Below, in pieces: positions 808-61,300 of a stretch of DNA of 64,000 nt; within the stretch, counting starts at the first letter, position 1; the number at the start of each line of letters is the position of its first letter. A program made the translations under genes and the position numbers. This DNA comes from Meloidogyne chitwoodi (taxonomy: Eukaryota; Nematoda; Chromadorea; Rhabditida; Meloidogynidae): assembly GCA_015183035.1 (NCBI GenBank), contig JACZZP010000008.1, positions 744,001-808,000 on the forward strand, given 5' to 3'. A model generated the notes under the pieces. The model did no database searches and was not told the DNA's origin. It worked only from the letters and a program-made list of their open reading frames with translations.

Positions 808-3800
808 ATGGAGTGTGGCCCCAATGAGCCAGCATTATTTAATTTTGAAAATAATTCTACTAGACAATTTATTCATTCTTTAGTTTTATTTCAAAAGTAA
901 TTATTAATTTAATATTTAAATTTAAATAATTTAAATAATTATTTAAGAGGATATGCACCAATTCATGGAAGAATTTGTGTATTTTTATGTCTTTTTGGTT
1001 ATTTTATATTTTTAATTTAAAATAATATTTTTTAAGGTGTAATAACAAATTTAATTCATTGTGTAGTTCTTACTAGACCACAAATGAGGCAATCCGCTGT
1101 TAATTCTATTATGGTAAGATATTAATATTTTTTTAAAAATAATTTAAAAAAATATTTTTATTTTTTAATTTTAATAAATAAATTTAAAAAGACTGCAGTA
1201 GCTCTTTGTGACCTTGGAACAATGGGCTCTTATTTAATTTATATTTGGCACTTTGTCCTTGGAGGAGAAACTTCTTGGTAATTAAATAAATTAATTAATT
1301 TATTTTTAATTTTAAATTAATTAATTATTTAAAAAAAGTTCAAATACCCAAACAAATATTTGGATGTATTTTCTTTTATTACACATTTTTCTTTCAATTT
1401 TATTACACACAGCAACACTTTGGTTAGCCGTTTTAATGGCATTTCTTAGACGAATGACTTTAAATAAAAATATACTTTATAGGTAAATTAATTAAATTAT
1501 AATTAATTGAATAAAATAATTATTTAAAAATAATATATAAATTATTTTTAATTATTTATTTTTAATTAAATTTTAAAAAAATAAATAAATATATATGTAG
1601 GTAAAAATGAAAAGTCGAGGAATTTCCTTTATTAAAAAAAATTTAAATTTATTTAAAAAAAGAAAAGATTAAATATCCTTTTTTAATTATACCTTATTTA
1701 ATTTAAAAAAAAAATAAATAAATAATAAAAATTAAAAAATAACTTTCCAGTACTTAGAGAACAACTCCCTCACTAATTTTAAAAGGAGAGTTTAACTGTT
1801 TGTCCAAAATTTATTTTTTTCTTTCAAAAAATACTTTTACCCTTTATATTTTAATAATTAAATTATATTAAAATTAAAATTAAATAATTATTTTAACAGT
1901 AAATGGCAAAGAGTACCCTTGGCTAGAAGATTATCTTTAACAATTATATTTTTTATTTTGTTTCTTTGTATACCTTCATTAGCTGTACATCAAGTAATTG
2001 AATATCCCCATGCTAATTGGAAACCTTCAATTTTATGTCAAAATGTTTTTTTATTAAAAAATTATAGTGAACCAATATTTACAATTATTATAAGAAATTC
2101 AGCTATGGCCAATGGTTGTTGGCTTTTTAAAGCTAATTTATGGTTAACTGGAATTTGTTTTAAGGTAAAACATATTATTAATTTAATTTATTAAAAAATA
2201 AATAAACATTTTAAAAAATAAATAAACATTTTAAAAAATAAATAAATATTTTTAAATAAATAAATATTTATTTTACCCTTACCACTTAAGAGGAGTGTGT
2301 GACCTTCTAACATTAATTTCTCTATAAATATTTTTTTTATTCATAAAATTTTTAAATAAATAAATAAAATGGACACTAATATAAGTAAATTAAACATTTT
2401 AACAAATAAAAAAAATTCCGAAAATTTTAGTCCTTAAAAAAGACAAAAAAGTCATTTTATCCCTTTTAGGTATTTTAATATTTTTATTTAATTTTTAAAT
2501 AATTAAATGTCCATAAATTTTAAATTTTCTTATATTTATTTTTTATTATAATATTTATAAAAAATTAAATAATTTAGGTAATTCCTTGCCTTTTACTTTT
2601 AATTCTCAGTGCTAGTCTTCTTCAAAGACTTAGACAAGCAGAAAAAAAACGTTGCCAACTTTTACTTAAACAAATTGGTGATTCTTCTAATGGAAGAAAT
2701 TCTGTTGATATTTTAAAAAAACAAAAGCAAATAAATGGAGCAAATGTTGGACATAGAAAGTTGGAATTTATTTATTTATTCAGTTTAGGTCACAGAAATG
2801 GAGGTCAAGTGAGCGGAGCGCGAGAAATTATAACACTGGAACGGTTAGTTCATTTTAAGTGATTATGATATTTTTAAATAGAGCAGAAAGTCTTCTACAA
2901 AATATCAAAAAACTAGAATTTTTGTAAAACTTCAAAATAAGTTGTAGTGAAAAAACCTCCAAAAATGTATATTCTCAAAACATTTAGTTTTTTGGCTACA
3001 ACTTTTTTTCTATTTTTCAAAAAATTATCTTCTTTTGATATTTTATAGCAAATTTTCTGCTCTATCCAATGGTATCATAATCACTTAAATTGACTAATCA
3101 TTCAGTTGTTATAATTACTGGCACTCAGTTCCGTTCAAGTTTACCTAAAGTGGATAAATTAAAAAATATTTTTATAAAATTTTCTAAAATTTTTTAATTT
3201 ATTTAATAGAATGAATGCTGACAGAACAACAGGACTTTTATTAGCAATTCTTTGTGTTTTTCTCCTAACAGAATTACCCCAAGGACTTATTGCTATATTA
3301 AATGCAATATATACTGCAGATGTTCATCGTTTTATTTATTTAACTTTGGGGGATGTTTTAGACCTTCTTTCATTAATTAATTCTTCTGTTAATTTTGTTT
3401 TATATTGTTTAATGTCTTCACGTTATCGACAAACTTTTTGTTCAATTTTTCTTCCAATTAAAATTTGTAGACGGTAAAATTATATTTTTAATTTTTAAAG
3501 AAGAATTTCTGTTCAATAATTTAAAAATAAATAAATATAATATTTTTTAATTTAAAGTTGTGTTGCTTCAGCACCTGCCCACAGTTTTATGTCAGAAAAA
3601 CAATTTAATGAAAATTGTGATGAAAGAGAAGGCAAAGAAACGCTTACCCAAAGACTAGCACAAAGGAGAAGGTTTTTATATTTATTTAAAAAATAATAAT
3701 TTTTTATTTTAATAAAATATAATTTAAAAAAGAATTTTCTTATAAATTTTAATATTTTTTAAAATTATAAAAAATAATAATTTTATTAAATTCCAAAAAA

Positions 3801-4022
3801 AGGTCAACTCCAAATCTTCGTCTATTACAAAGAATTGAAAGTCATCAAAGTCAGACAAGTATGAATGATTGGAAAGAAAAAAGACTACAAAGAAGAAGCT
3901 CTAATTTACCACAAAGAAATCTTTTAAAAATATTAGAACCTTTTGAAGAAAATGAAAGAAGACAACAAATAAATAATATTTCTTCATCTAATTATTTACT
4001 TACTCCAAATGCTGGATTTTAA
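808..4022 (+). CDS. dmsr-like: DMSR-like (myosuppressin receptor-related) rhodopsin-family GPCR, ten exons
   Basis: Ten exons splice into one open frame of 496 residues: 808-896, 948-997, 1037-1113, 1192-1277, 1339-1482, 1900-2164, 2578-2759, 3210-3473, 3558-3671 and 3803-4022. All introns have GT..AG ends. Seven hydrophobic segments are visible. TM1 follows a GYAPIHGRICVF stretch and runs into GVITNLIHCVVLTR. The TM6 region has DRTTGLLLAILCVFLLTELP, and TM7 has LLSLINSSVNFVLYCLMSSR. The helix-6 TELPQG motif and the NSSVNFVLYCLMS form of NPxxY are typical of nematode DMSR and insect myosuppressin receptors, so the product is probably a plasma-membrane receptor for an FMRFamide-like peptide. 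A long basic cytoplasmic tail (last two exons) follows. The ATG was chosen because it precedes N-glycosylation site NNS and the TM1 lead-in. The tail exons were duplicated elsewhere in the window. Exact ligand unknown. Confidence 0.88.
2780..3152. repeat. Inverted-repeat element in GPCR intron 7
   Basis: The two halves are reverse complements. The segment around 2843-2900 (TTAAGTGATTATGATA then TAGAGCAGAAA) is mirrored at about 3040-3105. The ends share TTTAGGT. Single-arm relatives occur at about 16018-16115 and 36120-36220. No clear target duplication was found, so the ends are approximate. Probably a non-autonomous DNA transposon relic. Confidence 0.6.
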
Positions 4023-4790
4023 AATAATTAATTAATATTTATTTAAATAATTTTTAAACTGTGATTATACTTATTAAACATTTATTTACTTAAAGTCTAT
4101 ATTTCTCAATTTAATAAAAAAATTAATTTTAATTAAAAAAAGGGAAAAGTGCAATTTTAACTTAAGACATTTATTTTAATTTAAATATTTTTAAATTTTT
4201 AATATTTGCACTTTTTACATATTAAATAATATATTTCTTAATCAAGATTAATTAATTAAATTAACTCAAACAATATAAATGCACTAAAAGAGACAAATAA
4301 ATAAATGGGCTCTTTTTGTGTTAAATAATTAATTAAAAATTATAGTTAAATTTTTATAAAAATTATTCGAGGATATTCAGTAAATTAAAAGTATAAAATT
4401 TAATTTAGTATTACACGGTTATTTTCTATATTTTATAACTTTGAAAGCCTTCTTTTAAATTTTTTTAATTTTTTTTTTAATTTTTAGATTAACATTTTTT
4501 ATAAATTTAATATTGAGTTTGATCAATGCTTTTTTCTTTTTTTTTTGCCGCTTTCAATAAAAAGTGCCTTACCAATGATCAAAATATAGATTAATAAATT
4601 ATTTTAAATTTTTTTATATATCTTCAATTTATTAGCTACCCAAAACACATTTTTTATTTTATTTAAAATTTATAATAAAAAATGTTTTAAAAATATCTTT
4701 TATTATTTTATTATTTTTTAATTTTAGCTGTTGTTTATTTAAATAATTATTTTTATATTAAATTACCTATTTGTTTGAAAAAACAAAAAA
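4023..4790. other. Intergenic AT-rich stretch
   Basis: Lies between the GPCR stop and the start of the UGT-like gene. The first 70 bases after the stop are also present downstream of the two GPCR tail copies at 11138 and 20100, and homology ends near 4093. Nothing else recognised. Confidence 0.5.
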
Positions 4791-8577: not shown

Positions 8578-9974
8578 TTATTCTGAATAACCGCCGCTTG
8601 GTTTTGGATTTACTGCTGCTGTTGACCTTTAATTTATTAAATATAATATTAATTTTTAAATTATTTACTGTTCATTTGCAGTCTCCGCTACATTTGGTTT
8701 ACTAGATGGGGAAGCTGCCGAAGGGCGATCTCCCTCATATTTATTATTAACTGGAGAAACTGATGATTCAGCATTACTCTTCTGAATTATTAAAGTGATA
8801 AAATTATTAAAAAATAATAATAATATTTACAGAAATATGCTCCATTGGTGCGTAGTCAGTCAAAGCATGATGTGAAGATCCGCCAGTACGACTGCTAGAT
8901 AAAAGAACTTCGCCTGTTCTCGGAGGACAAGGACAATATTCCGCTGAAATATTATTGAGAAATTGTACAAATAAATGGATTTACCATCAGATCCTGGTAC
9001 TCCTTTCCCTCCTGATTTGCCAGGTTGACCTGGTTGGCCAGGAATTCCAGGCGATCCTGAAGGTCCAGGAGGACCTGCTGGACCAGGAGTTCCAGAGGGA
9101 GGAGAACTGAGAAAATAATGATAAATTTTCTTTTAGTATGTTTATAAACTTACGCTCCCGATGCTCCAGCTTGTCCTGGTGGGCCTGGAGGTCCAACAGG
9201 GCCTTTATGTCCAGGCTTTCCTTGACCATGCATTCCTGGATTTCCTGGTTTTCCAGCTTCACCTGGCTGTCCTGCAAGTCCAAGTGGTCCTTGATCGCCA
9301 GCAGGACCCGGGGGACCAAAACCTCCATTTTGACCCATCCTTCCAGGCATTCCAGGCTGAATGATAAATTACAAGCAATTTTAATAATGTAGAAATGTAA
9401 ACAATTTCTAAAATTACCATCCCTGAAGATCCAGGAGGTCCTACAGGTCCAATCCCTCCAGGCAATCCAGGTGCACCAGCCGGACATTTAACACATCCAT
9501 TTTGTGTAGGATGTGATACTTCACTTGGTGCACTATCACTTCCAGCCTTTCCAGCTTGTCCATTAGTCCCATCCTCACCAGGAATTCCATTTTGACCTTT
9601 TTGACCAGGAGGACCAGATGGACAATTATTTGGTTGCCTTCCACAATTACACTGACCTTTAAATAATTTTAAGATAATTAAGTAAAGAATAGGTTACCCT
9701 GCTGCTGAGGAGCTTTTTGTGTTTGTTCGTATTGTCTACGTACTCTTTGTTGTCTATTGTCAAAATTGTTCGATTCTTCCATTAACTGTTGCCAAGCATC
9801 ATTTGCAATTAAATTAAAGTCATTTAAATCATTATGAATTTCAGAATATAACAAATTTAAATCATTAAATAGGGAGAGTATAATACAAATAAAAGTAATT
9901 GTGATAAGACCACATGCAGAAATTGATCCAGAGATGAGTGTTCTCTCAGAAAATATTTTAACAACAGAAAACAT
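8578..9974 (-). CDS. Cuticle collagen
   Basis: Minus-strand gene with at least six exons. The first (9974 down to about 9700) starts [19 protein letters not shown], contains one hydrophobic membrane segment, and has [10 protein letters not shown], the basic homology-box-A/furin-type site of nematode cuticle collagens. Later exons carry Gly-X-Y blocks separated by Cys-containing interruptions ([35 protein letters not shown]), such as [15 protein letters not shown] at about 9290-9330. The last exons give an acidic Ser/Pro/Asn tail. Using the donor inside CAGTAAAT near 8667 gives the ending [11 protein letters not shown], a classic cuticle-collagen C-terminus. Reading through instead would stop after NEQ. 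Such proteins are secreted, trimerise and are crosslinked into the exoskeleton. The opposite-strand open frames here are shadows of the Gly/Pro codons. Confidence 0.92.
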
Positions 9975-10497
9975 TGAAAATTCTTTGCAATTTATTCTTC
10001 TGTTTTAAAAATAAATAAACTTAAATAACCATTATTAACCCTTGTTCTGCTTTATATATGTAGTACATTAAAATCTTTTTTATATAAATAAATATTTTTA
10101 TTTTCCTGTTTTAGATTAATACAAATATCAAAACAAATAAAAAGTTTTTTTGATTTCTTTGCTATCCGCCTTTTTTATATTTTACTAGAATATTAATAAA
10201 AAGAGAGTAAAAGTGAAAGTACAACAAAATATTACAGAGAAAAGTCTCTTATTATATTCTCTAAAATTATTGGATTTGATCGGGAATAATGCAGGAAATG
10301 AATAAAGTATATTAATGTTGTAAAGAATTTGTGTCATTTTTTATGACATTTTTTTAAGATAAATTAATCCAGTGGATGGGTGTGTAGCATAATGTTGGTA
10401 TAGAATTTTTGGGAGAGTGAGTCGGGGAGATTGCTTAAAAAATTCTTTTGAGGGATTTCGCGGAGGAGTGTTTTTGTTCACTTTTTCTTCCTTTTAA
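9975..10497. other. Collagen upstream region
   Basis: About 520 bases between the collagen start and the left copy of the GPCR tail. It probably holds the collagen promoter. A short GC-richer tract lies at 10370-10480. No gene recognised. Confidence 0.4.
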
Positions 10498-11203
10498 ACT
10501 TTGTAGACGGTAAAATTAGATATTTTTTTAATAATTTTTGTTCATAATTTAAAATAAATAAAAATAATATTTTTTAAATTAAAGTGTTGCTTCAGCACCT
10601 GCCCACAGTTTTATGTCAGAAAAACAATTTAATGAAAATTGTGATGAAAGAGAAGGCAAAGAAACGCTTATTCAAAGACTAGCAAAAAGGAGAAGGTAAA
10701 AAATACTTTTTATTCGTGTCCAGACATTTCGTCGAACAAAATTGCACGACATTTCGTCCAAACGGAAAAAATCGTAGGCTCGGGTAAACGAAATGTAGTT
10801 TTTTGCCGTAGAGGCGAAATGTCGTGCAATTTTGTTCGACGAAATGTACAGATCCCTTTTTATTTTAATAAAATAATTTACAAATAATAAAATAATTTTA
10901 TTAAATTCCAAAAAAAGGTCAACTCCAAATCTTCGTCTATTACAAAGAATTGAAAGTCATCAAAGTCAAACAAGTATAAATGATTGAAAAGAAAAAAGAC
11001 TATAAAGAAGAGGCTCTAATTTACCACGAAGAAATCTTTTAAAAATATTACAACCTTTTGAAGAAAATGAAAAAAGACAAAAAATAAATAATATTTCTTC
11101 TACTCATTATTTGCTTACTCCAAATGCTGGATTTTAAAATAATTAATTAATATTTATTTAAATAATTTTTAAACTGTGATTATACTTATTAAACATTTAT
11201 TTA
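10498..11203 (+). pseudogene. Truncated copy of the DMSR-like GPCR 3' end (left arm)
   Basis: This matches 3463-4093 of the intact GPCR: the last bases of exon 8 (TGTAGACG then GTAAAATT), the next intron, the last two exons and about 65 bases past the stop. It has no upstream exons. In the last exon a Trp codon is changed to TGA (the GATTGAAAAG context near 10981), and two bases are lost at the exon-9 junction. A palindromic element interrupts its intron. It shares derived bases with the right-arm copy (ACAAGTATAAATGATT, GAGGCTCT, TACTCATTATTTGC), so both copies descend from one earlier copy of the parent. Confidence 0.9.
10715..10855. mobile_element. Palindromic MITE, 9-bp target duplication
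   Basis: Arms ACATTTCGTCGAACAAAATT and its complement bracket the element, with a second GACATTTCGTC copy just inside. Flanks CTTTTTATT at 10706-10714 and 10856-10864 are identical, consistent with a 9-bp target duplication. The element is absent from the equivalent intron in the right arm and in the parent GPCR. It is non-coding and non-autonomous. Confidence 0.8.
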
Positions 11204-11298
11204 CTCATCTTTATTGAATAATAATTTTGTCAATTTCTTAAGATTTATTCAACAAAAACAAATTAAAAATAACTTCAGATCGTCACAAAAATGTCAAC

Positions 11299-12495
11299 TT
11301 AAAAAACATTTAACCTTAAAATACTTCTTGCTCCCTCTCTAACCATATGATGAACCTTCGCCAACTTAAAGTACATAAGAAGCGATTTGAGAATTACCAA
11401 AACAACTAAAATTGTTTATTATTTTTATAACTAAACATTCGACTTTTAAAAATTCCCCAATCTCTAATTAAACCAATAAAAAAGTAAAAAATACCATCGG
11501 CAAACAAATTCCACGCATCTCCGTCAAAAATCTCCATTGTTGTATTACGGCAAACTGAATGACAGTTGCGAAAAAACACTGCAAGAATGTTCCTTTTGAG
11601 AACCACAATAGTCTCCTAAAATTAAAGCGAATCAATTGATTTTTTAAATTAGAAATAGATAAACAAACCAAAGCATAATCCTCATTATTAGGCCAAGCAT
11701 GATCCTGTAAGACCTAAAAGTAAAATAAAACCTTAGAAAAAATATTCTTAAATTTACCGCAGCCAATCCCATCAAGAACCTCTTTCCAACGCTATAAGTG
11801 ATCACATTGTAAATACCTATAAAATTAAATATAATAAAATTATCAAAAACTAAAGAATTAAATAAAAACCAGTTAAATATTACCAGAAAAACGGAGGCCC
11901 TAAAGTATAAAATTACCAAACATAAACTCAGAAAATTAGATACATTATAATAGGTTTCACGTTTAGCAGAAACTAAAAAATTGTTCCGAAATATTCTTAG
12001 AATGTATAAATGGGAACTTTAGATTTACTTTTGAACAATTTAATTAAATTTGCGTAAAATCATACCATTAAATGTAGCATTAATGTTCTGCAAAACATGA
12101 ACTGGTAGTCCAACGAAACTATCAAATCCATCGATCGCCTCCAAAACATTACCAAAAGAAGAAACCAAACGCTGTTTCACTGATGGTTGCTAAATAAAAA
12201 ATTAGAATTTGTATAAAATTAAATTTTTCTCATTTGACCCATCTAACTCACAGACAGATAAATGCTATAATTAACAAAAAATCAAAATTTCGCTCAATAA
12301 AAACTATTAAGTTATAGCGAACAAGGCCAAAGGAAAAAATATAAATTTCGTTTGGCATATAAATTTATACAGAAAACTAACCACCGGAGTGCTTCCTTCA
12401 AGTTCTGCAATACGATGGTTGAGAAGACGAATCTGTTCGTCACGAAGGCGAATTTGTTCATCACGACGACGAATATCTTCAACATTACCACTCAT
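11299..12495 (-). CDS. Orphan coiled-coil protein, left-arm copy (apparently intact)
   Basis: Six exons join in frame on the minus strand. Exon 1 (12495 to about 12382) encodes MSGNVEDIRRRDEQIRLRDE and continues as a short Arg/Glu heptad coiled coil with RDEQIRL twice. Later exons encode SVKQRLVSSFGNVLEAIDGF, GIYNVITYSVGKRFLMGLAA, LQDHAWPNNEDYAL and ETIVVLKRNILAVFFRNCHS, continuing to ...DAWNLFAD. The final exon gives a basic tail ending RSILRLNVF. The family was not recognised. The compact multi-exon structure, intact frames and near-identical partner in the other arm suggest a real gene. It could be a domesticated or still mobile element gene, or a lineage-specific regulator, but no catalytic motif was seen. 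Confidence 0.6.
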
Positions 12496-12834
12496 AACGA
12501 TCTTTTTATTTAAAACAACAAATATTTAAAAGTCTAAAAATTTAAAAAATAAATTTTACACTTAAGGTGACTTATGAATCAGAGACCTTTTTAAATTTTA
12601 TCAAGAGAAATTTATTTTGTTTTACTAAAAATTATAAATAGTTACCTAATTTACAACAACAAAACTGAAAAAATAAACGCGAGGAAAAAAATTAAAAAAC
12701 GCGAGGGCATAAATTAAAAAAAAATGAATAATAACAAAAGTTAAAATCATCGATTTATATAGCATGTTTTTGTCTCAAAATAAATTAAAATATATTGGCA
12801 AAATGTTTAGCGATATTTAAAGTTTAGCAGTTTA

Positions 12835-13083
12835 GGGAGCAGTTCAGTTGAGTCAGCACGATTGAGTCACCGTCTAAAATATTTCACCCAAGTTTTTTCC
12901 TAGATACGAATTATATAAAAATATGAATGATAGCTCATTTGAAAGAGCTCTTCGAACTGAGTCGAATGAGACCAAAATGAACGAATTTAGTAGGCTTCAA
13001 ACGAAGTTAAGAGAAACGGTGACTCAACCGTGCTAACTCAACCGTGTCAGACTCAATCGTGCTGACTCAACTGAGGTGTACCC
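12835..13083. mobile_element. MITE family A, copy 1, 8-bp target duplication
   Basis: Termini GGGAGCAGTTCAGTTGAGTC and the complement of GGGTACACCTCAGTTGAGTC bracket 249 bases. The flanks are identical: GCAGTTTA at 12827-12834 and 13084-13091. The corresponding place in the right arm (near 18450) has a single uninterrupted site (CTATAAAACTGC then TGAAATTTAAATATCG). The 8-bp duplication suggests a hAT-type source, although the terminal bases are not the usual hAT signature. Confidence 0.88.
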
Positions 13084-13104
13084 GCAGTTTATAGAGTCAA
13101 ATTA

Positions 13105-13362
13105 GCGAAACTGGCGCCACCTCAGCACCGCCATTTCAGTACTGCCATTTAATTAAGCGTTTTTCAAAATGTCTATATTTCCTTGATGATCCATATTAAA
13201 CTTGAATAAATATAAATGAACCAAGTAAAATAAGATATAAAAATGAAAGAAGAATATTAAAATGAAGAAAAAACCACTATTTCAGTATAAAAACTTTTTC
13301 GTACTGAAATGGATCCGTTTGTACGGACTGAAATGGGGGCACTGAAGTGACTCCAACCCACA
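13105..13362. repeat. Inverted-repeat element present in both arms (left copy)
   Basis: Ends GGCGCCACCTCAGCACCGCC and the complement of GGAGTCACTTCAGTGCCCCC are imperfect inverted repeats, each followed by an ATTTCAGTAC motif. The matching copy lies at about 18185-18440 in the right arm, so this insertion predates the inverted duplication. Confidence 0.6.
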
Positions 13363-13581
13363 AATTAGAGTACGGCGCAAAACAGGAATATTTTACACGA
13401 TTAAAATCTGTAATTTTAGTATTTTTAGGCATAGTCCTGTCAGATTATGTTCTCTAAAATAATCCAATCCTATTGCAAATCAACTAGAACAAATATTTAC
13501 TTACAATTAGTGGAAAATCTGTTTGAAGATTAACTACAAATCCATTTCACATTAAACTATCCAGTTTAAATTTTTATAAAA

Positions 13582-13845
13582 TTATATTTTTCTTACCTTT
13601 CTTTTTTTGAAATTTTTTCCTTTAAGTATATAAATAATTGCTGAGGTACTCAGAATATTTTTAACATTTTGACACCATTGCACAAAATTTCTTTTAAAAT
13701 TTATTTTTGTAGTTATATTATTCTGCCTTAAATAAATTAGGTATTTGTTTTTTGGCAGTTTATTTGGAATTATTGTTGGTATTGAATTTAATATATCAAT
13801 AAGTAATTCATTAGGTAATATTTTATTAAATATTTTTTTAAACAT
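13582..13845 (-). CDS. Short F-box-like ORF, left-arm copy
   Basis: Encodes 87 residues if unspliced. It starts MFKKIFNKILPNELLIDILN, close to the LPxELxxxI core of F-box motifs, then WCQNVKNILSTSA and a KKRK end followed by a GTAAGA donor. It is identical at protein level to 17681-17944. The spliced relative at 21313 continues through two further exons after the same KKRK|GT junction. No counterpart exons were found here, so this copy is probably a 5' fragment. F-box proteins recruit substrates to SCF ligases, but the match is too short for a firm call. Confidence 0.45.
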   Translation of the reverse strand: MFKKIFNKILPNELLIDILNSIPTIIPNKLPKNKYLIYLRQNNITTKINFKRNFVQWCQNVKNILSTSAIIYILKGKNFKKRKVRKI

Positions 13846-14117
13846 ATTTTAATTTTATTTAAAAAATTAAAAATTATTTATAAATAGTATATAATAAAAA
13901 AAAGAGAAACTATTACCTTTAAAATATTATTTAATATTCTTTATTTGTTTTAAAAAACAATAGAAATTAAAAACAAAGAAAATTTATTAAATAATTATGA
14001 GAAAATATTTTATAGCCTCTTTTTTTTATAATTTAAAATATTTCTCATATTAAATTTTAAATAAAAATAAAAAATTTAATTAAATAAAAGAATTTTCATA
14101 TAAAATAAATAATTTAT

Positions 14118-17100
14118 TTAAATAATATAAATTGTTTCATTAATATTAAAAAATATTTTATTAATTAATTCTATTCCAATTTGAAAACAAGTATCTTGAT
14201 TAGATAATTCATATTTCCAACCTCCAAATCTTTTTTAATTAAAATTAAATTAAATATATTTATATTAATTTACCTTCCTCTAGAATATATTTTTAATTTT
14301 TCTAAACAATTATGACATTCTTTTAATATTAAATCTCTTTCTTTTGTAGGTATAGGATAACCAAAAGGTAAACATTTTATCCATTTAGAACAAACATTTT
14401 TTTTATTATTATTTATTATATTCACACTAATTAAATCTTTAGATAAAAAAAGAATTTTTTTATTTAAATTATTTTTATAACTTGACTACTCTAACGGGTA
14501 CACTTCAGTTGAGTCTTCACAGTTAGTCACCGTTTCTCCTATAACTTCGTTTGAATCCTACTAAATTCGTTCATTTTAGCCTCATTCGACTCAGCTAGAA
14601 GAGCTCTTTCAAATGAGCCATCATTCGTATTTTTATATAATTCGTATCTAGGAAAAACTTGAATTAAACTTAAAACAGTGACTTAACCGTGCCTGACTCA
14701 ACTGAACCGCTCCCACTCTAACACCCTATTTAATCGCAAGAAAATAAAACATTCTTCAATTCATACTTTAATAAGAGAATTTTGTGATTAAAAATAGGGT
14801 GTTTACCTAAATTAGTTAATTTCAAATTTTTTAAGGATATATAAACCTAACTTTATTAAAAAATATATTTATTACCATTAATAACTTTTTCAAAAATTAT
14901 ATTTTGTTGATTAATATCTAAATGTAATTCTTTTTCAGAATTTTGACCAATTTCACAAAGTATTGACCAAAATTGATTTTTATTATTTAAATTATTATTA
15001 TTAATTAATGAAGATGATGAACTACTAGAACAATTTGGAATTAATTCTGAACTAAAATTTGAAAGAATTGTACAGCGATAAAATAAAATCTAAAAAATTA
15101 AATAAATTAATTAATTGGAAATTTTATTTAATTTAGAAAAGGTCCAAAATAATTAAAAAATTTATTTTTTAATTAAAAATAATTACATCTTTTCTTGGAT
15201 AATATGCCCAACTTAATTGTTTAGCAAATTCACTTTGTCCACCAAATAATCCAATACCAACTAAAATTACCTAAAATAAAATAATATTATTATTTATTTA
15301 TTTAATATTTACAGTAGAATATTTTAAAGGCAATGGCTGAGGTAAAAGGCCTTCACTCATTCGTCCTAGTTCAGTTAATGGAATTGTGGAAATAAGAATA
15401 TCGTAATTCCATTTCTTTAAATAAATAAATTATTTTTAAAATATTTATTTTAATTTAAAAAATTAATTTTTTTAAATTAAATTAAAAAAAAAATAAATAT
15501 TTATTTATTATTAATTAATTAAAATTAATTAAATATATAATTTTTAAAATTAATTTTAAAAATAAAATAAATTTACCAATTCATTTCCTTCTTTATTAAC
15601 AGAAAAAACAATTTTATTTTTTGAATCAATTTTAATAATTTTTTGACCAAAATTAAAAATATTTTTAGGAAATCTTTTAGAAAATAATTTCCACATTTCT
15701 CCAATTCCTTTACAATTTGAAGGATAACGAAATGCTGTTTGTATTTTTTTATCTTCATTTAATAATTCTTTTTTTGAAAATAAACATCTTCGTTTTAATT
15801 GGGTTAAATCAATTAAAGGAACTCTTCCTTTTAACCAACTAATTCCCATTTGAGATATTGGAACTGTCCAAACCTTGAATTTAAATATATATTTTTATTT
15901 TTTTAATTTATTTTAAAGAAAAATATTTGATAATACACGTGAGTTTGAAGATTCAACTGAGTTCGGTGTCATTTGATCCCCATAAATTATAAAAAATAAA
16001 CTATTATGTAATTTTAGGTGTTTATGGTACCATTGGATAGAGCAAAAAATTTGCTACAAAATATCAAAAAATTAAAAAATTTAAACAAATAGAAGAAAAA
16101 GTTATAGTCAAAGAACTCATTTGTCAGAGAGGAGTGTTGGGGAAGGTGGGTTGATTTTAAAATTTACATTTATTTGGAAAATTGAAATAAAAATTTAAAT
16201 TTTTTATAATTTTAAAGTACTCATTCTCCTCTATTTTTATTTTTTAAATAATTTAATTTTAAAACAACTTTTTTTATTTTATTTTTACCTTTTCATTGTA
16301 TGGCCTAACAAATATTTTTTGTAAAGTTGGCCCAAAAAGTGAAAGGGAAAATTTATCAAAATTTTCTTCTTCTTTTTCTTCTTCTTTTTTAATTAAACAT
16401 AATAATTCTTCTAAACATTTTTGTTTTAAATTTTTAGGAAAATAAGGAATTGAATTTTGAACAGGATAAGGAATATAACCTTTAGGTATTATTAATTCAT
16501 TATTATTATTATTATTTTCTTCTTCTTTTTCTTCGTTTATTATATGTGACATTTCTGCCTTAAAAATAAATATTATTGTAAAATTTTGGTTTTTTGAAAA
16601 AATTAAATTATAAAAATTTTGATCCTTTTTTAATTTTTTAAATATTTAAAAAATTATTATTTTTAAAAATAAATAAATATTAAAGGTATTAAATTAAAAA
16701 AAACAATTTTCCTCTAACCATTGCACATCTTGGTATAATATTCCATTCAGTCACACATTCTTCCATTGCATCAATAAAGTTTTGATATTTACTAATTCCT
16801 TTATATTTTTAAATTAATTAATAATTAAATTAATATTTATTTACCCATTACATGAACACCTAAATCCCAACAAAAACCATTTTCATCAATTACACTATTT
16901 GCCAAACCACCAATTTCATTTTCTTGTTCAATAACACAAATATTTATATTTTCCTTTTAATTTTTAATATTTAATTTAATTTATTTTAATTAATTTTAAA
17001 TTCCTTACATTAATTAACTTTTCTTTTTTTAATTGAAAAATGCGATAAAGTGCTCCTTAAAAATAAATAAATATTTTAATACAAATAAAACCTAAAGCAG

Positions 17101-17188
17101 TTGGTCCAGCACCTAAAATAATTATTTTATTAAATAAATTCTCTTCAGTTGAATTTTTAATATTATTTTCTTTTTTAATTGAAGACAT
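14118..17188 (-). CDS. glf-1: UDP-galactopyranose mutase (eukaryotic type)
   Basis: Multi-exon minus-strand gene in the spacer between the inverted arms. Order of motifs: N-terminal FAD Rossmann loop [16 protein letters not shown] (about residues 20-35); [16 protein letters not shown] with [53 protein letters not shown]; a GIGEMWKLF...FNFGQKI segment; the [17 protein letters not shown] core; [10 protein letters not shown]; and C-terminal [20 protein letters not shown]. These follow the layout of fungal and nematode UGM, a flavoenzyme that interconverts UDP-Galp and UDP-Galf for Galf-containing surface glycans. Low-complexity Glu/Asn and Ser/Asn inserts lengthen two loops. Introns carry a MITE (14496-14714) and a dispersed repeat (about 16018-16115). 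Start ATG at 17188, stop complement at 14118. Confidence 0.88.
14496..14714. mobile_element. MITE family A, copy 2, in a UGM intron
   Basis: Begins GGGTACACTTCAGTTGAGTC and ends with the complement of GGGAGCGGTTCAGTTGAGTC. The 8-bp flanks ACTCTAAC at 14488-14495 and 14715-14722 are identical. It shares the internal TCATTCGACTCAGC...AGAGCTCTTTC segment with the copies at 12835 and 44227. Confidence 0.88.
16018..16115. repeat. Dispersed repeat fragment in a UGM intron
   Basis: Contains GGTACCATTGGATAGAGCA followed by TTGCTACAAAATATCAAAAA and AAAAGTTATAG, matching one arm of the element at 2780-3152. A further relative is at about 36120-36220. Confidence 0.55.
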
Positions 17189-17680
17189 TTTAAAAATTAA
17201 ATTAAAATAATTTGTTTAAATTTTATATATTTTAATTTAAAATGTGTTTAAAAATAATTAAATTGATTAACAACGAAATTTTCATGCTTCCTTTTTATTT
17301 AATAAAATTGACCTAATTTTTTCTTAAAAATTAATACATTAAATTGTTAATAGAAATTATTAAAAAAATATAAAATATAATTATAGATATATATTTTAAT
17401 TAGGATAATATGGCCATACTATTTTTAAATGTAATTTAAAAATATAAAACTCTTAAATATATGTATGTATATGAGAAATATTTTAAATTATAAAGAATAA
17501 AGAGACTATTAAATATTTTCTCATAATTATTTGAATAAATTTTCTTTGTTTTTAATTTCTATTGTTTTTTAAAACAAATAAAGAATATTAAATAATATTT
17601 TAAATAAAGGTAATAGTTTCTCTTTTTTTTATTATATACTATTTATAAATAATTTTTAATTTTTTAAATAAAATTAAAAT

Positions 17681-17944
17681 ATGTTTAAAAAAATATTTAA
17701 TAAAATATTACCTAATGAATTACTTATTGATATATTAAATTCAATACCAACAATAATTCCAAATAAACTGCCAAAAAACAAATACCTAATTTATTTAAGG
17801 CAGAATAATATAACTACAAAAATAAATTTTAAAAGAAATTTTGTGCAATGGTGTCAAAATGTTAAAAATATTCTGAGTACCTCAGCAATTATTTATATAC
17901 TTAAAGGAAAAAATTTCAAAAAAAGAAAGGTAAGAAAAATATAA
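17681..17944 (+). CDS. Short F-box-like ORF, right-arm copy
   Basis: Encodes the same 87 residues as 13582-13845 (MFKKIFNKILPNELLIDILN start, WCQNVKNILSTSA, KKRK then a GTAAGA donor). Protein identity with the left copy points to a recent duplication. As in the left arm, no downstream exons corresponding to those of the gene at 21313 were found. Confidence 0.45.
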   Translation: MFKKIFNKILPNELLIDILNSIPTIIPNKLPKNKYLIYLRQNNITTKINFKRNFVQWCQNVKNILSTSAIIYILKGKNFKKRKVRKI

Positions 17945-18184
17945 TTTTATAAAAATTTAAACTGGATAGTTTAATGTAAGAGGGATTTCTAGTTTATAAT
18001 CTTCAAACAGATTTTCATTAAATGAAGTAAATATTTGTTCTAGTTGATTTGTAGGATTCGCGCAATAGGATTGGATTATTTTAGAGAACATAATCTGACA
18101 GGACTATGCATAAAAATACTAAAATTACAGATTTTAATCCTGTAAAATATTCAGGATCATGTTTTGCGCCGTACTCTAATTTGT

Positions 18185-18440
18185 GGGTTGGAGTCATTCA
18201 TTACCGTCATTTCAGTCCCAGTACAAACGGGTCCATTTCAGTACTAAAAAGTTTTTGTACTGCAATATTGGTTTTTTCTTCGTTTTAATATTCTTCTTTC
18301 ATTTTTTATAACTTATTTTACTTGGTTCATTTATATTTATTCAAGTTTAGTATGGATCATCAAGGAAATATAGACATTTTTGAAAAACCCTGGTAATTAA
18401 ATTGCAGTACTGAAATGGCTGTACTGAAGTGGCGCCAATT
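18185..18440. repeat. Inverted-repeat element, right-arm copy
   Basis: Counterpart of 13105-13362, with TTGGAGTCATT at one end and GAAGTGGCGCCAA at the other and internal CATTTCAGT motifs. It is more diverged than most of the arm. Confidence 0.5.
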
Positions 18441-18776
18441 TCACTAATTGTCTATAAAACTGCTGAAATTTAAATATCGCTAAACATTTTGCCAATTTAT
18501 TTTAATTTTTTTGAGACAAAAACTCATGCTATATAAATCGATGATTTTAACTTTTGTTATTATTATTCATTTTATTTTTAATTTATGCCCTCGCGTTTAT
18601 TTTTCAGTTTTGTTGTTGTAAATTAAGTAACTATTTATATTTGTAGTAAAACAAAATAAAGTTCTATTGATAAAATTTAAAAGGGAACCGTGATTCAATA
18701 AGTTACTTTAGTGTACTAATTATTTTTTAAATTTTTAGACTTTTAAATATTTGTTGTTTTAAATAAAAAGATCGTG

Positions 18777-19990
18777 ATGAGTGGTCATGTTGAAGATATT
18801 CGTCTTCGTGATGAACAAATTCGTCTTCTAAACCTTCGTAATGCTGAGCTTGAGCGACGTATTGCTCTTCTTGAAGGAAGCACTCCGGTGGTTAGTTTTC
18901 TGTATAAATTTATATGCCAAACGAAATTTATATTTTTTCCTTTGGCCTTGTTCGCTATAACTTAATAGTTTTTATTGAGCGAAATTTTGATTTTTTGTTA
19001 ATTATAGCATTTATCTGTCTGTGAGTTAGATGGGTCAAATGAGAAAAATTTAATTTTATACAAATTCTAATTTTTTATTTAGCAACCATCAGTGAAACAG
19101 CGTTTGGTTTCTTCTTTTGGTAATGTTTTGGAGGCGATCGATGGATTTGATAGTTTCGTTGGACTACCAGTTCATGTTTTGCAGAACATTAATGCTACAT
19201 TTAATGGTATGATTTTACGCAAATTTAATTAAATTGTTCAAAAGTAAATCTAAAGTTCCCATTTATACATTCTAAGAATATTTCGGAACAATTTTTTAGT
19301 TTCTGCTAAACGTGAAACCTATTATAATGTATCTAATTTTCTGAGTTTATGTTTGGTAATTTTATACTTTAGGGCCTCCGTTTTTCTGGTAATATTTAAC
19401 TGGTTTTTATTTAATTCTTTAGTTTTTGATAATTTTATTATATTTAATTTTATAGGTATTTACAATGTGATCACTTATAGCGTTGGAAAGAGGTTCTTGA
19501 TGGGATTGGCTGCGGTAAATTTAAGAATATTTTTTCTAAGGTTTTATTTTACTTTTAGGTCTTACAGGATCATGCTTGGCCTAATAATGAGGATTATGCT
19601 TTGGTTTGTTTATCTATTTCTAATTTAAAAAATCAATTGATTCGCTTTAATTTTAGGAGACTATTGTGGTTCTCAAAAGGAACATTCTTGCAGTGTTTTT
19701 TCGCAACTCATTCAGTTTGCCGTAATACAACAATGGAGATTTTTGACGGAGATGCGTGGAATTTGTTTGCCGATGGTATTTTTTACTTTTTTATTGGTTT
19801 AATTAGAGATTGGGGAATTTTTAAAAGTCGAATGTTTAGTTATAAAAATAATAAACAATTTTAGTTGTTTTGGTAATTCTCAAATCGCTTCTTATGTACT
19901 TTAAGTTGGCGAAGGTTCATCATATGGTTAGAGAGGGAGCAAGAAGTATTTTAAGGTTAAATGTTTTTTAAGTTGACATTTTTGTGACGA
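18777..19990 (+). pseudogene. Orphan coiled-coil protein, right-arm copy (frameshifted)
   Basis: Same exon series as the left-arm gene, starting MSGHVEDIRLRDEQIRLLNL at 18777. Exon 1 differs from the left copy by heptad-sized changes while the following intron is unchanged. In exon 5 two bases are missing (CGCAACTCATTC versus CGCAACTGTCATTC in the left arm). Translation then runs RNSFSLP and stops, removing the last exon and a half. Everything downstream is still conserved at DNA level, so the loss is young. A frame-restoring sequencing error cannot be excluded. Confidence 0.6.
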
Positions 19991-20094
19991 TCTGAAGTTA
20001 TTTTTAATTTGTTTTTGTTGAATAAATCTTAAGAAATTGACAAAATTATTATTCAATAAAGATGAGTAAATAAATGTTTAATAAGTATAATCAC

Positions 20095-20640
20095 AGTTTA
20101 AAAATTATTTAAATAAATATTAATTAATTATTTTAAAATCCAGCATTTGGAGTAAGCAAATAATGAGTAGAAGAAATATTATTTATTTGTTGTCTTCTTT
20201 CATTTTCTTCAAAAGGTTCTAATATTTTTAAAAGATTTCTTTGTGGTAAATTAGAGCCTCTTCTTTGCAGTCTTTTTTCTTTCCAATCATTTATACTTGT
20301 TTGACTTTGATGACTTTCAATTCTTTGTAATAGTCTCAGATTTGGAGTTGACCTTTTTTTAGAATTTAATAAAATTATTATTTTTTTATAATTTTAATAA
20401 ATATTAAAATTTATAAGAAAATTCTTTTTTTAAATTATATTTTATTAAAATAAAAAATTATTATTTTTTAAATAAATATAAAAACCTTCTCCTTTGTGCT
20501 AGTCTTTGGGTAAGCGTTTCTTTGCCTTCTCTTTCATCACAATTTTCATTAAATTGTTTTTCTGACATAAAACTGTGGGCAGGTGCTGAAGCAACACAAC
20601 TTTAAATTAAAAAATATTATTTAAATATTATTTTTGTTTA
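20095..20640 (-). pseudogene. Truncated copy of the DMSR-like GPCR 3' end (right arm)
   Basis: Minus-strand copy of the last two exons of the GPCR at 3558-4022, with the intervening intron kept almost as in the parent. Both exons remain open here, unlike the left-arm copy, but no upstream receptor exons exist. It could only be expressed as part of another transcript. Confidence 0.85.
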
Positions 20641-21312
20641 AAAAAATCTTTAAAAAAAAAAAGAATTATTTAAAATTAAAAATTCACATCTTTTTATTAT
20701 GATTAAAATATACATAAAAATGATTTAAAAAAATAAAAATATTTAAATAATTTAAAACATATTTAAATAAACAAGGAGAAAATGTTTTTCTTATTTTTTC
20801 TTTTAAAATTTCAATTTTTAAATATAATTATTTACAAAAAATATTTTAGATTAAAGAATAAAAGGTTATTAAATATTTTTGATTAAATCTTTATTGTATT
20901 TTTTAATCTATTTATTGAATTTTACCGACAAAGAAAATGTTATCCATAATTTTTTATATTTTAATAATTTGTAGGCATAAAATCAACAATCATTTAAAAA
21001 AATATAATATAAATTATAATACTGAATGGTAAAACTGCTTAATGAATATGATGATTATTGATACAAATAATAATTAAATAAATATATAAGTATTTAAAAA
21101 TAATAATCTTTTCTAAAAAATAAGTTTACTTATAATAAATTGCCCTTAAAAATGATAAAATATTTAAGGATAAAATTTTCAGACGGCAAAATTAATAAAT
21201 ATAATGAATTAAGTATTTACTTATATTTAAATAAAAGTACTTAAAAGTTTCTTTTATAAATTTATTTTTAAAAAATAATTTTATTTTTAATATTTAAATT
21301 AAAATTTAAAAA

Positions 21313-22139
21313 ATGTTAAAACAAATATTATTTAATAATAATAAAATTAAAATATTACCTAAAGAATTAATTATTGATATATTAAATTCAATACCAACAA
21401 TTAAAAAAAAGTAAATAATTTATAAAATTAAATTTTAATAAAAATTAATTAATTTAAGTAAAATATTTAAATCTAAAAAATATTTTGAAGAATGGTGTCA
21501 AAATGTTAAAATTATTTTATCAAGTTCAGCTTTTCTATATTTTTGTATTGGGAAAAATTTTAAAAAAAGAAAGGTAAAAATATAAAATTAAAATAAAATT
21601 AATTAATTAAAAATTAATTAAGATTTATTCTAAATTTATAAATTTAAAAAATTAAAATTTTTTTGGAAAATTTAAATATTTTTTATAATTTTAAAGTACT
21701 CATTCTCCTCTATATTTTTATATAAAAAATTTAATTTTAGCTGTAATTTAAATAATTTTTTTTTTAATTTTTATAATTTAATTTTAAATTAATTAAGATA
21801 CAAATTGATAATAATTTTAAACAAAGAAGACTATTAAGTATTAAAATTTGTCAAAGTAATCTTCCTGAGGTTTGTTTTTTTTTAAATTATTAATTAAAAA
21901 TAATCTAGAAAGTTGTCTTTTTTTGTGTTTTTTGTAACTTAAAAAATAAAAAATATATATATAAATTCTTTAAAATAGGGCTCTAATAAAATAAAATATT
22001 TTTTTATTTATTAAAAATTGTAAAATTATAATTCTAAATTTTATTAATTTAATAAATACAGCAAATGATCACATATTTTTTAAATTCTTTGGAATTTATT
22101 GATCTTTCTTCAATTAACAGAACAACTTTAATTTTATAA
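21313..22139 (+). CDS. Small F-box-like protein, spliced
   Basis: Four exons join in frame: 21313-21410, 21459-21573, 21798-21869 and 22062-22139, giving 120 residues. It opens MLKQILFNNNKIKILPKELI, similar to the MFKK.. ORFs of the inverted arms, keeps WCQNVKIILSSSAFLYF and GKNFKKRK, and ends SSINRTTLIL. The LPKELIIDILNSIP stretch resembles the first helix of an F-box, but the rest of the domain is not obvious. It appears to be the diverged, complete relative of the arm ORFs. Confidence 0.55.
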
Positions 22140-55366: not shown

Positions 55367-58300
55367 TTATAAAGCAGTAACAGGAAGTTTATTACAATTT
55401 TTATCAAATTCTATTAATAATTTAGAAAATTCATTTCTTTCTTTTTCATTATTTTTTCTGTAATTATTTGTTGATTCATTATTTAATGACATTTTTTTAA
55501 TATAATTTGATGAAAAAAATAAAAAATCTTTTTTTGGTTCAATAATTTTTGATTTATATTTTCTGTTATTTAAAGCTTCTGTTTTTGTTTCTGTGATTAA
55601 ATATTGTTGTATTGGACTCTTAAAAAAATAATAAATAATTTTATTTTTAAATTTAATTATAACAAACTTTAATAATTTCATTATTTAAATTATTAATTTC
55701 ATTTTCAATTTCTATATAATTATTTCCTGTTTTCCATTTAATAAAATGTTGCTTTTTAAAATTTTTATTTTTTCTGCAAGGACAAGATTGGTAAAAATGA
55801 CGTTGATTTAAAAAAGGTGAAATACATGGACAGGGAAGCCAAACAGGAGATAAATTATTATTAAATGATGTTGTTGTTGAATGTTTTTCATTATTTACTT
55901 TTTAAAATAAAATAATTAATTAATTAAGAATTAATGATGAGAACAATTTTTAAATTATTTTTTAGTAAATTTTCTTTCAGAATATTTTTTTATAAGAAAA
56001 AATAGATGAATTGATTAAAAAAAATTTTTTTTTTGACTCAAATTTTAAAGTTAAATTTTGAAAATATATTTTTTTAAATAAATATTCAATACTAATTTTT
56101 ATTATTTTTAACTATATTTACATACTAATATAATTTTACCCAAAGTGCCCTTTCAAAACTCATAAGTGATTTTAAAATACCGGGAGCCCCGTGAAAGTTT
56201 TACATGTCGGGGGGAACTTTTTGGGGCGCATCAAGGAAAACTATAGACTTTTTGGTGCGGGTGTCGTTTGGCACCGAAATGACCACGGTTGTTTCCGTAT
56301 CTCGAAAAAGTTCAATAGAAAGTGGTAAAGGTCTTGCTTTGAGGGCACCCCGCGCCGATTAGTAGATTTTTTTGGAAAAAAAAAATTTTCAAAAATTTCG
56401 ATTCTAAGGGGCGTTTTGCCCGTGAGACTGAAGTGTACAGCCCAGACTCTAATAGTTTTCTTAATTTCTAGCAAAAACGGATGGCTTTTTGAGGGAAATT
56501 CTTATGGGATAATGGGTTAACGAGCACAGGGATTTTTTGGGAGGGGTAATTTCGGTGCCAAGGTTGAGTGCGGCACTGAACAATACGATTTTTTTAATGC
56601 CTTTATATAAATATTTTTTTATTTTTTGATAATAAGTAATGGGGTAAAAGAAAATGTTTTGTATGGGCCATTTTGTTGCCGAATGTTAGTTCGGCACTGA
56701 AATGGACTTTTTGAACAGTTTTGTGAATATGATTTGGAATTTTTGGTAGAATATGAAATCGCGTATGGGGATTTTTTTATGATAGGTCACTTTGGTGCCA
56801 AGTTCGAGTGTGGCACTGAAATGGCCGGTTGAAGTTTTAAATTGGATTTTTGAGTGCGAAACTGAACCTGGGGATATGGAGGTAGTTGAAGTATTTGTAG
56901 CCAAGAGATGTAGTTACAAAATGTTTGTGAGACATTTGAGTCTTGGATTAAGATTTGGGGATGAGTCATGAAATGGGGATTTTAACTGTTTTTTGACTCT
57001 AACTTTTTGGAAATATTTTTTTTAATTTTTCTGATATTTTATTCGTGTTCAGCATATGTTTTTACCCCATATAAGATGTTTTTTAGAAAAAAATCGGAAT
57101 AAAAAATTTTACATTATTTTTCCAAAGGGGTACCCCTTTAGCCGAATTTTTTGAAATTTTCAATTGACCTTAACTTTACGAATTTTAATTAGATTTTAAT
57201 GAATCAAAGGTTATTAAATAAAGTAAAAAATTAGTTATTTTTTGAGTGAAGAAAAAGTTGAAAAATTTTGAGGTTAGGGGTAGTTAGGGTCGATTTTTTG
57301 AAAATTTGAAATTTTTCGGTTTTTCGAAAAAATTTTGGAATTTTTGCCATGGGATCAGATTGAAAGTATTTTTATAAAATGAAGCATAATTTTTAACACC
57401 TAATAGTATTTTAAAATTTTCAAAAAAGGTTCCTTTTGAAAAAGTTATGATTTTTTTAAGTTTTGGTCATAAAATCTCATCTAAAATTTTGAAGCCAAAA
57501 ATGCAAACATAAAAATTAATGTAATATTGGCAAATGATATATCATTTGAAAGCCCTTGATGAGCTGATTCTAAAAATATTTTTTGTAAATTTTTCGGGTC
57601 AATTTTGACAAAGTTGAGTCAAGTCGACATTTTGTTTCCTTTGGGGTTCACGGGGTGGGGTGTATTAATCGAGTCAATAAATTGTATTTTAACAGATTAT
57701 GTTTTAGAGCATCCAATGACGGTTCGAAAAATATATCACATGTTCGGGTACACTTGAGTCTCATATAGTTAGAGTCCAATGAATTCTCTGGAATTTTTTT
57801 ACTGACGCCCATATGTAATGAAGAAACGAGAGCCGAAGGCCAGCGGTGATCCATATATAATGAAGAAACGAGGGAAGAAGACCCGAGGTGATCCATCTTT
57901 AATAAAGAAACGAGGGCCGAAGGCCTGAGGTAATCCATCTGTATTAAAGAACCGAGGGCCGAAGGCCCAAGGTAATCCATCTGTATTAAAGAGCCGAAGG
58001 CCTGAGGTGATCCATCTTTAATAAAGAAACGAGGGCCGAAGGCCTCAGATGATCAATCTTTAATAAATAAACGAGGGCCGAAGGCCCGAGTGATCCAACT
58101 GTATTATAGAACCGAGGGCCGAAGGCCTGATGTGATCCATCTGTATTAAAGAAGCGAGGGCCGAAGGCCTGAGGTGATCCATCTGTATTAAAGAAGCGAG
58201 GGCCGAAGGCCTGAGGTAATCCACAAGATTTGGGATTATGAGGTGATCCATCTACAATGAAGAAACAAGAGCCGAAGACCAGAGTTGACCCATCTATAGT

Positions 58301-61300
58301 GAAGAAACGAGAGCCGAAGGCCAGCGGTGATCCATCTATAGTGAAGAAACGAGGGCCGATGCCCGAGTGATCCATCTATAGTAAAGAAACGAGGGCCGAA
58401 GGCCCGAGTGATCCATCTGTATTGAAGAACCGAGGGCCGAAGGCCTGAAGTGATCCATCTGTATTAAAGAACCAAGGGCCAAAGGCCCGAGCTGATCCAT
58501 CTGTATTAAAAAACTGAGGGCCGAAGGCCTGAGCTTATCCATCTATAATGAAGAAACGAGAGCCGTGATCCATCTGTAATAAAGAAACGAGGGCCCAAGG
58601 CCCGAGGTGATCCATTTGTAAAACGAGGGCCGAAGGCCCGAGTGATCCATCAGTACTGAAGAAACTCGGGCGAAAGCCCGAGGTGAACCATCCTTACTGG
58701 CAATGAAACAGCCTAATAAAAAAATATTTAAAAATAATACGGGATTTAATTGAATAATAGGTAATCGAGTATGGAGAATTCAATGGACATGGTCATTTTG
58801 TTGCCCAAATTGAGTGTGGCACTGAAACGGCCAAATAAATTTAAAAAAGGCGTGTTTTCTTGGGGATAATGGGAAATCGACTATTATAAATGTGCGAGAC
58901 CCGAAGGCCCGGGGTGTAACATGCATGGGACCCCCACAGATTTAACATAAGCATTCTAAAATTCTAGCAGCGCGCGAAGCGCGCCCCAAAGCCCGTTAGG
59001 GCTTTTTAAAACACAAAAATAATTTTACCCAAAATTTTTTTAACTTTCCAACTTTTTTATGTTTCCCATGTAATCTTAACATCCCATGTACTGCACTACT
59101 GAGTAGTGCACGCTTCCACTGGTTAAATAAATAAAAAAAAACTTTTAGAAGAATTATTTGAAATTAATAAATTTCCATTAATAATAAATCCATTTTTTGG
59201 TTGTTCATTTTCAATTTTTTCATTATTATTATTATTTTTAATTTTATAACAACCAAAACATTTAAAAAAATAATTTCTTTAATTAAAAATAAAATTAATT
59301 TATTAATTTAAAAAACTTACAAAAAAACTTCTCTATATTCTTTATTAAAAATTAAATAAATAACACAATTAACTGAAGAATTAAAAACTACTAAAAAATT
59401 ACTTGCATCAGATAATAAATTTAATAAAAGTGGATCAGGTTCAAAAAAAGTTTCTATTAAATTGACAAGAAGAGATAAAGTATTACAACATAAAAACAAT
59501 ATTACAACCTTTTTTAAAAAATTAATTAAATTAAAATAAATATATTTAATAAAATATTTTTTAATAATTATTTTATTTATTCCCTTTTACTAAAATAGAC
59601 CAAATTCAAAGAAGAAATATATCCAGGGCCTAGTTTAAAAATTTATTATATATTCTAATTAAAATATTAATTTATTTAAATAAAATATATATTCTCTTTT
59701 TTAAAAATAAAAAATAAAAATAATATTTTAATTATTTACCATAATCATAGTAATTGTTTCATCAGAATTAGGACTAATATTATTATTAGATTCAACAGAA
59801 GGAGCACTTAAAAGTGGAGTAAATTTTGATTCATTATTTTTTTGATAAATAAAAGGTGAAGAATTTTTATTAATTAAATTATTATTTTGAATTGTTGGTG
59901 AAGAACATGAAGAAGAAATACTTAATTAATTTTAATTAATTTAAATATTTATTTAAATATTTACCTTTTCTTTATTTGTTTTTTATTATATTTTGTTGCA
60001 TCCACAGATTTACGAAAAATAATTAAAAGATTTAAAAATAATAAAATAAAAAAAGGAAATAAAGTCATTGCAAACATATACAAATAAACTTTAAAAAAAA
60101 TTAGTAAATTAATTTTAAATAAAAAAAAATTAAAATATTTTAAAATAAATGGAAAATATTTTTTTTTATTTTTAATTAAAAAATCATAATTTAAGCTTTA
60201 TTTAGAATTATTTAAATTTAATCATATGTTTTACTAGAATTTTAAGAAATTTATTTATTATTTAAAATTAATTAACTTCCAGCCGGATTCGAACCTGCTT
60301 CTCTTCCGGTTAATAAACAATAACACAACCCACTAAACTAAAAGTTATCTTTTTAAGTTTTATACATTATTAACTGTTAATTTATTAAATTAAAGTTAAT
60401 TTAATCTTTTTAATTGATATTTTTATTGAAATAAAATATTTTCCAATAAATATTTTATAATATTTTATATTATTATTATACCATTATAAATAGTATTAAT
60501 ATGATAAAATAAATATGTAGGACATATTTCAATAATCATTTCACCACTTCCATTATGAATACATTTTCTAAGATTAAATTGAGGAAATCGTAAAGAATTA
60601 TAAATTATTGAACAAATTATTATACTAATTATTATTTTTTTAGCTTTTTTAATTGTACAATGAAATTGTAATTTTTTACGCCAACAAACCTTTTTAAAAA
60701 AATTAAAATAATTTTTTTATTAATTTATTTTTAATTTAATTTAATTTAAATATATTTTTATTTTCTTTTTTTTTAATTTAATTATTAAAAAAACCAACAC
60801 AAACATAACAATCAAAAGCTGCTGCTACAGTAAAGTAAATAGAACAGGACTGTGCCATATAACCAAAAGGTAATGTATATACCTTTAATTTAATTTAAAT
60901 TATTTATTTATTTTTATTTTAAAAAAACTGTAGTATAAGGTGCTTGTACTAATTGTGGAATATAAGACCTTGCAGAATCAATCCAAAAAATAAATAATCC
61001 AGTTAAAACAACAAAAAAATCTGAGAAGGCCAAAAAAAGTAAATAAGTATTTGAAGAATTTTTCATACAAGGACGAGTAAAAACTTTAAATAAATTAAAA
61101 TAAATTAAAAAATAATTAAAAAACTAAAAATATTGAGCAAATTAGTAATAACTCCAAATACAGAAAGTGAAGGTAACATAACTATAATAACAATATAATT
61201 AAACCAAGCATATAAAGGGGAATAATCTTCATGTTGTAAATCAGAACAAATACCTAATAAAATAAATAAAAATATTAATCTATTTTAATTAATTAATTTA

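Follow-up and report, generated by a model that had tools for sequence, protein, structure and literature searches.

An inverted segmental duplication flanking a UDP-galactopyranose mutase gene in Meloidogyne chitwoodi, with unevenly diverged arms

Overall organization of the locus

The window, that is the whole stretch of 64,000 nucleotides analysed here, corresponds to positions 744001-808000 of contig C29 of the Meloidogyne chitwoodi assembly, and genome searches covered 47,477,280 bases in 30 contigs. Self-BLAST and full alignment delineate two facing arms of about 3.5 kb separated by a 3.4-kb spacer (14051-17468). The left arm spans 10471-14050 on the plus strand and the right arm 17469-20658 on the minus strand, both as defined by BLAST and alignment. 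Self-BLAST matches 10857-12833 to 20409-18457 with 95.1% identity over 1,988 columns, 13084-14050 to 18463-17469 with 93.1% over 1,001 columns, and 10523-10697 to 20658-20484 with 89.9% over 179 columns, a similarity far beyond chance. As its arms are homologous and oppositely oriented within a single contig, the locus is an inverted segmental duplication, or palindrome with a spacer, and both self-BLAST and alignment bear out the initial annotation, which had placed a large inverted duplication here around a UDP-galactopyranose mutase (UGM) gene. At their outer ends the arms are staggered, the left extending about 50 bp beyond the right, and the extra length of the left arm is mainly made up of two insertions absent from its counterpart. 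Each arm comprises the 3' end of a chemoreceptor-like gene, an orphan coiled-coil gene, mobile-element remnants and a short open reading frame (ORF); the composition first read from the sequence, in which a GPCR tail and a third ORF accompany an orphan coiled-coil gene, thus holds.

The UGM gene and the spacer

The UGM gene occupies 14118-17188 on the minus strand. Our model encodes 524 residues in 11 exons, running from 17188 down to 14118 with no internal stop and with introns that begin with GT and end with AG. A 112-residue exon of the gene has one match in the genome, so that UGM was detected as a single copy. The 524-residue protein is 72.6% identical to a Meloidogyne incognita protein, and its best relatives are Meloidogyne proteins, with M. 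incognita, M. enterolobii and M. javanica among those listed. Comparison with solved UGM structures gave an E-value of 6.2e-60 for 4dsg and a match over residues 19-527 for 3ute with an earlier model of 537 residues; that model has a different start of exon 10 and was revised to 524 residues against the M. incognita protein. The motif GAGPTALG, the N-terminal dinucleotide motif, is present, and the gene is of eukaryotic type as judged by full-length similarity to the solved enzymes that includes this motif. Intron 9 harbors a MITE-like insertion (14510-14714) of the same family as an element of the left arm (12835-13083, see below), with an 8-bp target duplication, ACTCTAAC. This intronic element lies near the exon 10 acceptor. 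UGM appears to be an ordinary bystander that has its own upstream region within the spacer.

Genes and open reading frames of the arms

A third copy of the outer end of the arms, here called P, was found by BLAST at 3435-4090 on the plus strand, where it forms the two 3'-terminal exons of a longer 7TM chemoreceptor-like gene. It matches 10471-10697 and 10875-11205 in the left arm and 20635-20065 in the right arm. The end of the longer gene, at 4022-4090, lies 6.4 kb leftward of the left arm. Its Pfam matches come from late exons alone: the exon at 3178-3477, upstream of P, matches 7TM_GPCR_Srw with an E-value of 6.8e-15, and 2578-2862 gives a weak match to the same family (E 0.0069). In the left arm the tail fragment (10587-11136, plus strand) is interrupted by an insertion and has two in-frame stops, one TGA and one TAA. 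In the right arm (20133-20393, minus strand) the last exon is open over 86 residues. The arms carry just the segment that matches 3435-4090, which lies past the 7TM_GPCR_Srw match, and an Srw-type transmembrane domain was not found in the arm fragments.

The orphan coiled-coil gene lies at 11406-12495 on the minus strand in the left arm and at 18777-19864 on the plus strand in the right arm. Exon 1 (12382-12495 and 18777-18890) encodes 38 residues in both arms. Between left and right, one heptad is gained and another lost through compensating 21-bp indels, accompanied by a few substitutions; the differing heptad-coding part is 12403-12485 on the minus strand, with its right counterpart within 18777-18890. 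A 2-bp difference near 11562 alters the frame of the last exon, which from the same exon start runs for 69 codons on the left versus 22 on the right, in line with the frameshift mentioned in the initial annotation. The exon model is partly uncertain: between 11755 and 11930 the exons have no confident in-phase join, a doubtful piece was omitted from the model, and a second frame is open (101 residues) across the last-exon region on the right, which leaves the model unsettled. Pieces of the gene match the genome at both arms alone (E<=1). Among 200 scored candidates no homolog of the protein was found at E<=1, an absence that carries some weight because the database contains Meloidogyne proteins; the search used the partly guessed exon model, and a wrong model would reduce its sensitivity.

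The third component is an ORF of 88 residues at 13582-13848 (minus strand) in the left arm and 17678-17944 (plus strand) in the right arm, the two proteins being 100% identical. A diverged third copy lies outside the right arm at 21318-21598 on the plus strand (73.6% identity by BLAST; 52% at the amino acid level, with internal stops), and there are four further matches in the genome. This ORF had been called F-box-like. Pfam does not confirm the label, as it assigns no family to the ORF and none of the genome's 115 matches to PF00646 (E<=1) falls at the arms. Most of these 115 F-box matches are found on contig C1, many of them within about 375,000-950,000.

Insertions in the left arm

Arm-specific insertions had been noted beforehand, and alignment reveals two, both in the left arm. 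We refer to them as MITE-like, MITE being a label chosen in this analysis. The first (10698-10874) has an inner palindrome and is similar to sequence at several other sites in the genome. The second (12835-13083) is flanked by an 8-bp target duplication, GCAGTTTA, the right arm retains the empty site, and many copies are present in the genome. The two insertions show target duplications or matching flanks, and the corresponding site on the right is empty.

Divergence between the arms

Divergence is distributed unevenly along the arms. One tract, 11082-12402, comprises 1,319 aligned bases with no substitution and a single 2-bp indel, including 0 differences in the 750 bases taken as noncoding (outside the exon intervals). 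A second tract, 13551-14012, has no substitution in 462 aligned bases and contains one 4-bp and one 1-bp indel; over 13546-14012 there are 3 mismatches in 467 bases, all at the edges. In the counted segments outside both tracts, 109 of 1,197 bases differ, a count from which both insertions, the poorly aligning stretches 10697-10886 and 12835-13099 and all sequence outward of 10587 were excluded. The count includes 26 mismatches in 12403-12495 that are inflated by an ungapped fit across the two 21-bp indels; without this stretch the count is 83 of 1,104. The initial annotation had described the arms as nearly identical and young, which fits the two clean tracts but not the 109 differences in 1,197 aligned bases outside them.

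The longest identical run, 1,319 bases, is nearly fourfold the maximum of 358 reached in 10,000 shuffles, and the second, 462 bases, exceeds the maximum of 242 in 2,000 shuffles. The copy P provides a further comparison in the chemoreceptor tail segment. With P as reference, the left and right arms share a base that differs from it at 3 of 19 informative sites outside the tract (10587-10696 and 10887-11081) and at 5 of 5 sites inside (11082-11206), 24 sites altogether after omission of the poorly aligned sites in 10517-10578 and 10697-10886 (one-sided Fisher test, 0.0013). Site 11206 lies at the edge of the P homology; with this site dropped, the value becomes 35/8855 = 0.004 under the same formula. 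Site sharing therefore shifts at the edge of the tract.

Duplicates in the surrounding 264 kb were used as controls. With minima of 200 bp and 80% identity, this region contains 22 inverted pairs. Inverted arms of at least 1 kb occur at the present locus and at C29:587618-593066, where an inverted duplication with 89% identity over about 1.1 kb and a 3.2-kb spacer is also unevenly diverged. Eight other duplicate pairs, direct ones included, were all non-uniform. For seven of the eight the observed run lay beyond all 2,000 shuffles, and for the eighth (P/R) 7 of 2,000 shuffles reached it. Since the control pairs are non-uniform too, the shuffle test alone is unspecific and the mosaic is not peculiar to inverted arms; conversion-like mosaics are a property of young duplicates in this region, not of this palindrome alone. 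Conversion at the present locus is argued from how long the tract is, from its noncoding portion and from the sites compared across three copies. Just to the right of the window, at C29:809396-816651, direct duplicates of 90-94% identity include one identical run of 480 bases beside sequence with 12-15% divergence.

Origin of the mosaic arms

The inverted duplication is genuine, well preserved and for the most part ordinary, apart from its odd heptad exon. The features of the locus are probably best explained by an older inverted segmental duplication in which two substitution-free stretches arose through later gene conversion from arm to arm. The composite segment, with its chemoreceptor 3' end, coiled-coil gene, mobile-element remnants and short ORF, is present in both arms; inverted copying would have placed a second instance of it across UGM. 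Left and right have diverged, and two MITE-like insertions sit in the left. Later, stretches of about 1.3 kb and about 0.46 kb in one arm would have been repaired from, or overwritten by, the sequence of the other, and the 1.3-kb tract may represent several conversion events. Conversion, which had been named beforehand as a possible consequence of such arms, is supported by the clean tracts: they have near-zero divergence inside otherwise diverged duplicates and cross noncoding DNA, in a region where control pairs are uneven as well. Plain purifying selection is argued against, because the clean tracts span exons, introns and intergenic DNA alike.

A single recent inverted duplication, with no conversion and with diverged parts that consist of fast-evolving or repeat-derived sequence, is unlikely. 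Part of the diverged stretch is indeed derived from mobile elements, and there the mismatch count is raised by alignment and local indels; all eight control pairs are uneven too. Against this, segments that are not repeats have also diverged, with 13 of 195 bases different in segment A2 and 31 of 262 in segment E, which comprise noncoding and tail-exon sequence, versus 0 of 750 noncoding bases in the tract; the change in shared sites at the tract edge likewise speaks against it.

That the arms are an assembly artefact, either a fold-back contig or a repeat-collapsed consensus, is highly improbable. The otherwise perfect tract is broken by one 2-bp indel, which counts in favor of an artefact. 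A fold-back would yield identical arms and is unlikely, given that left and right differ by two insertions and by many substitutions (109 of 1,197 bases outside the tracts); the flanks and the 3.4-kb spacer are, moreover, unique. Consensus polishing of a repeat could be an alternative homogenizer of the assembled arms. Finally, two long inverted arms flanking a cargo gene might recall the terminal inverted repeats of one large UGM-carrying mobile element, a scarcely credible origin that we reject, as genome searches returned neither the arms nor UGM at a second place, the outer ends are out of register by about 50 bp and UGM is a normal nematode gene.

Besides conversion, the initial annotation had proposed cruciform extrusion, spacer inversion and the seeding of amplification as conceivable consequences of the arms. 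Cruciform extrusion is implausible across a 3.4-kb spacer and is unlikely here. Inversion of the spacer through crossing over in the identical tracts is predicted as a possibility.

Comparison with known inverted duplications

A search of titles and abstract openings in the literature found nothing on this locus. The comparisons that follow draw on portions of the cited accounts. In Caenorhabditis, long inverted repeats of paralogous gene pairs are described at the hsp-16/T27E4 locus and others, and conversion has been proposed to maintain their identity (PMC1803023). As at the present locus, near-identical arms that contain genes and intergenic DNA face each other, whereas here the 3.4-kb spacer holds a whole unrelated gene and the arms are mosaic, compared with a spacer of 414 bp at hsp-16 (PMC1803023). 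Of 23 smaller C. elegans duplicon pairs (4 kb or less), 3 are head-to-tail and the rest inverted, and the arm size and spacing found here fit this class (PMC2728738). Those duplicons were, however, chosen by high identity in one species, and the portion of that account considered here does not describe a mosaic structure (PMC2728738).

Palindromes are reported in Meloidogyne, with one in M. incognita, three in M. arenaria and none in M. hapla (PMC5465968). Like the present locus, palindromes of parthenogenetic animals and Meloidogyne consist of duplicated blocks that lie inverted on a single scaffold and may undergo gene conversion (PMC7953838, PMC5465968). They are, however, multi-gene collinear blocks found by annotation, an approach that would likely miss a 3.5-kb case made of fragments and short genes (PMC7953838, PMC5465968). 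Conversion tracts between C. elegans paralogs have a mean of 117 bp and a range of 12-2,958 bp (PMC3966223), and among young C. elegans duplicates about one in two is partial or chimeric (PMC2728529). The 1.3-kb tract, at the long end, and the chimeric arm thus fall within the C. elegans picture (PMC3966223, PMC2728529).

The locus offers a clear and readable example of patchwise ageing in a nematode inverted duplication, and cautions against dating a duplication by the high identity of its arms. One could also speculate that the arms form a diversification cassette, in which conversion maintains identity in the bodies of the two lineage-restricted coiled-coil genes, the heptad-coding first exon escapes and swaps 21-bp heptads at constant length, and the UGM spacer is inverted in the population by arm-to-arm recombination; we regard this as very unlikely. 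If the heptad exon were polymorphic, the locus could be used to ask whether an orphan gene pair is diversified by conversion together with slippage. Should UGM flip, the arrangement would supply a simple marker of inversion at a gene that other nematodes need for their surface sugars.

Other features of the window

Collagen triple-helix coding exons were observed at 8860-9693 on the minus strand (Pfam Collagen, E 1.9e-13 for 9150-9368). At 57809-58692, self-BLAST gave many overlapping self-matches, as is typical of a tandem repeat array.
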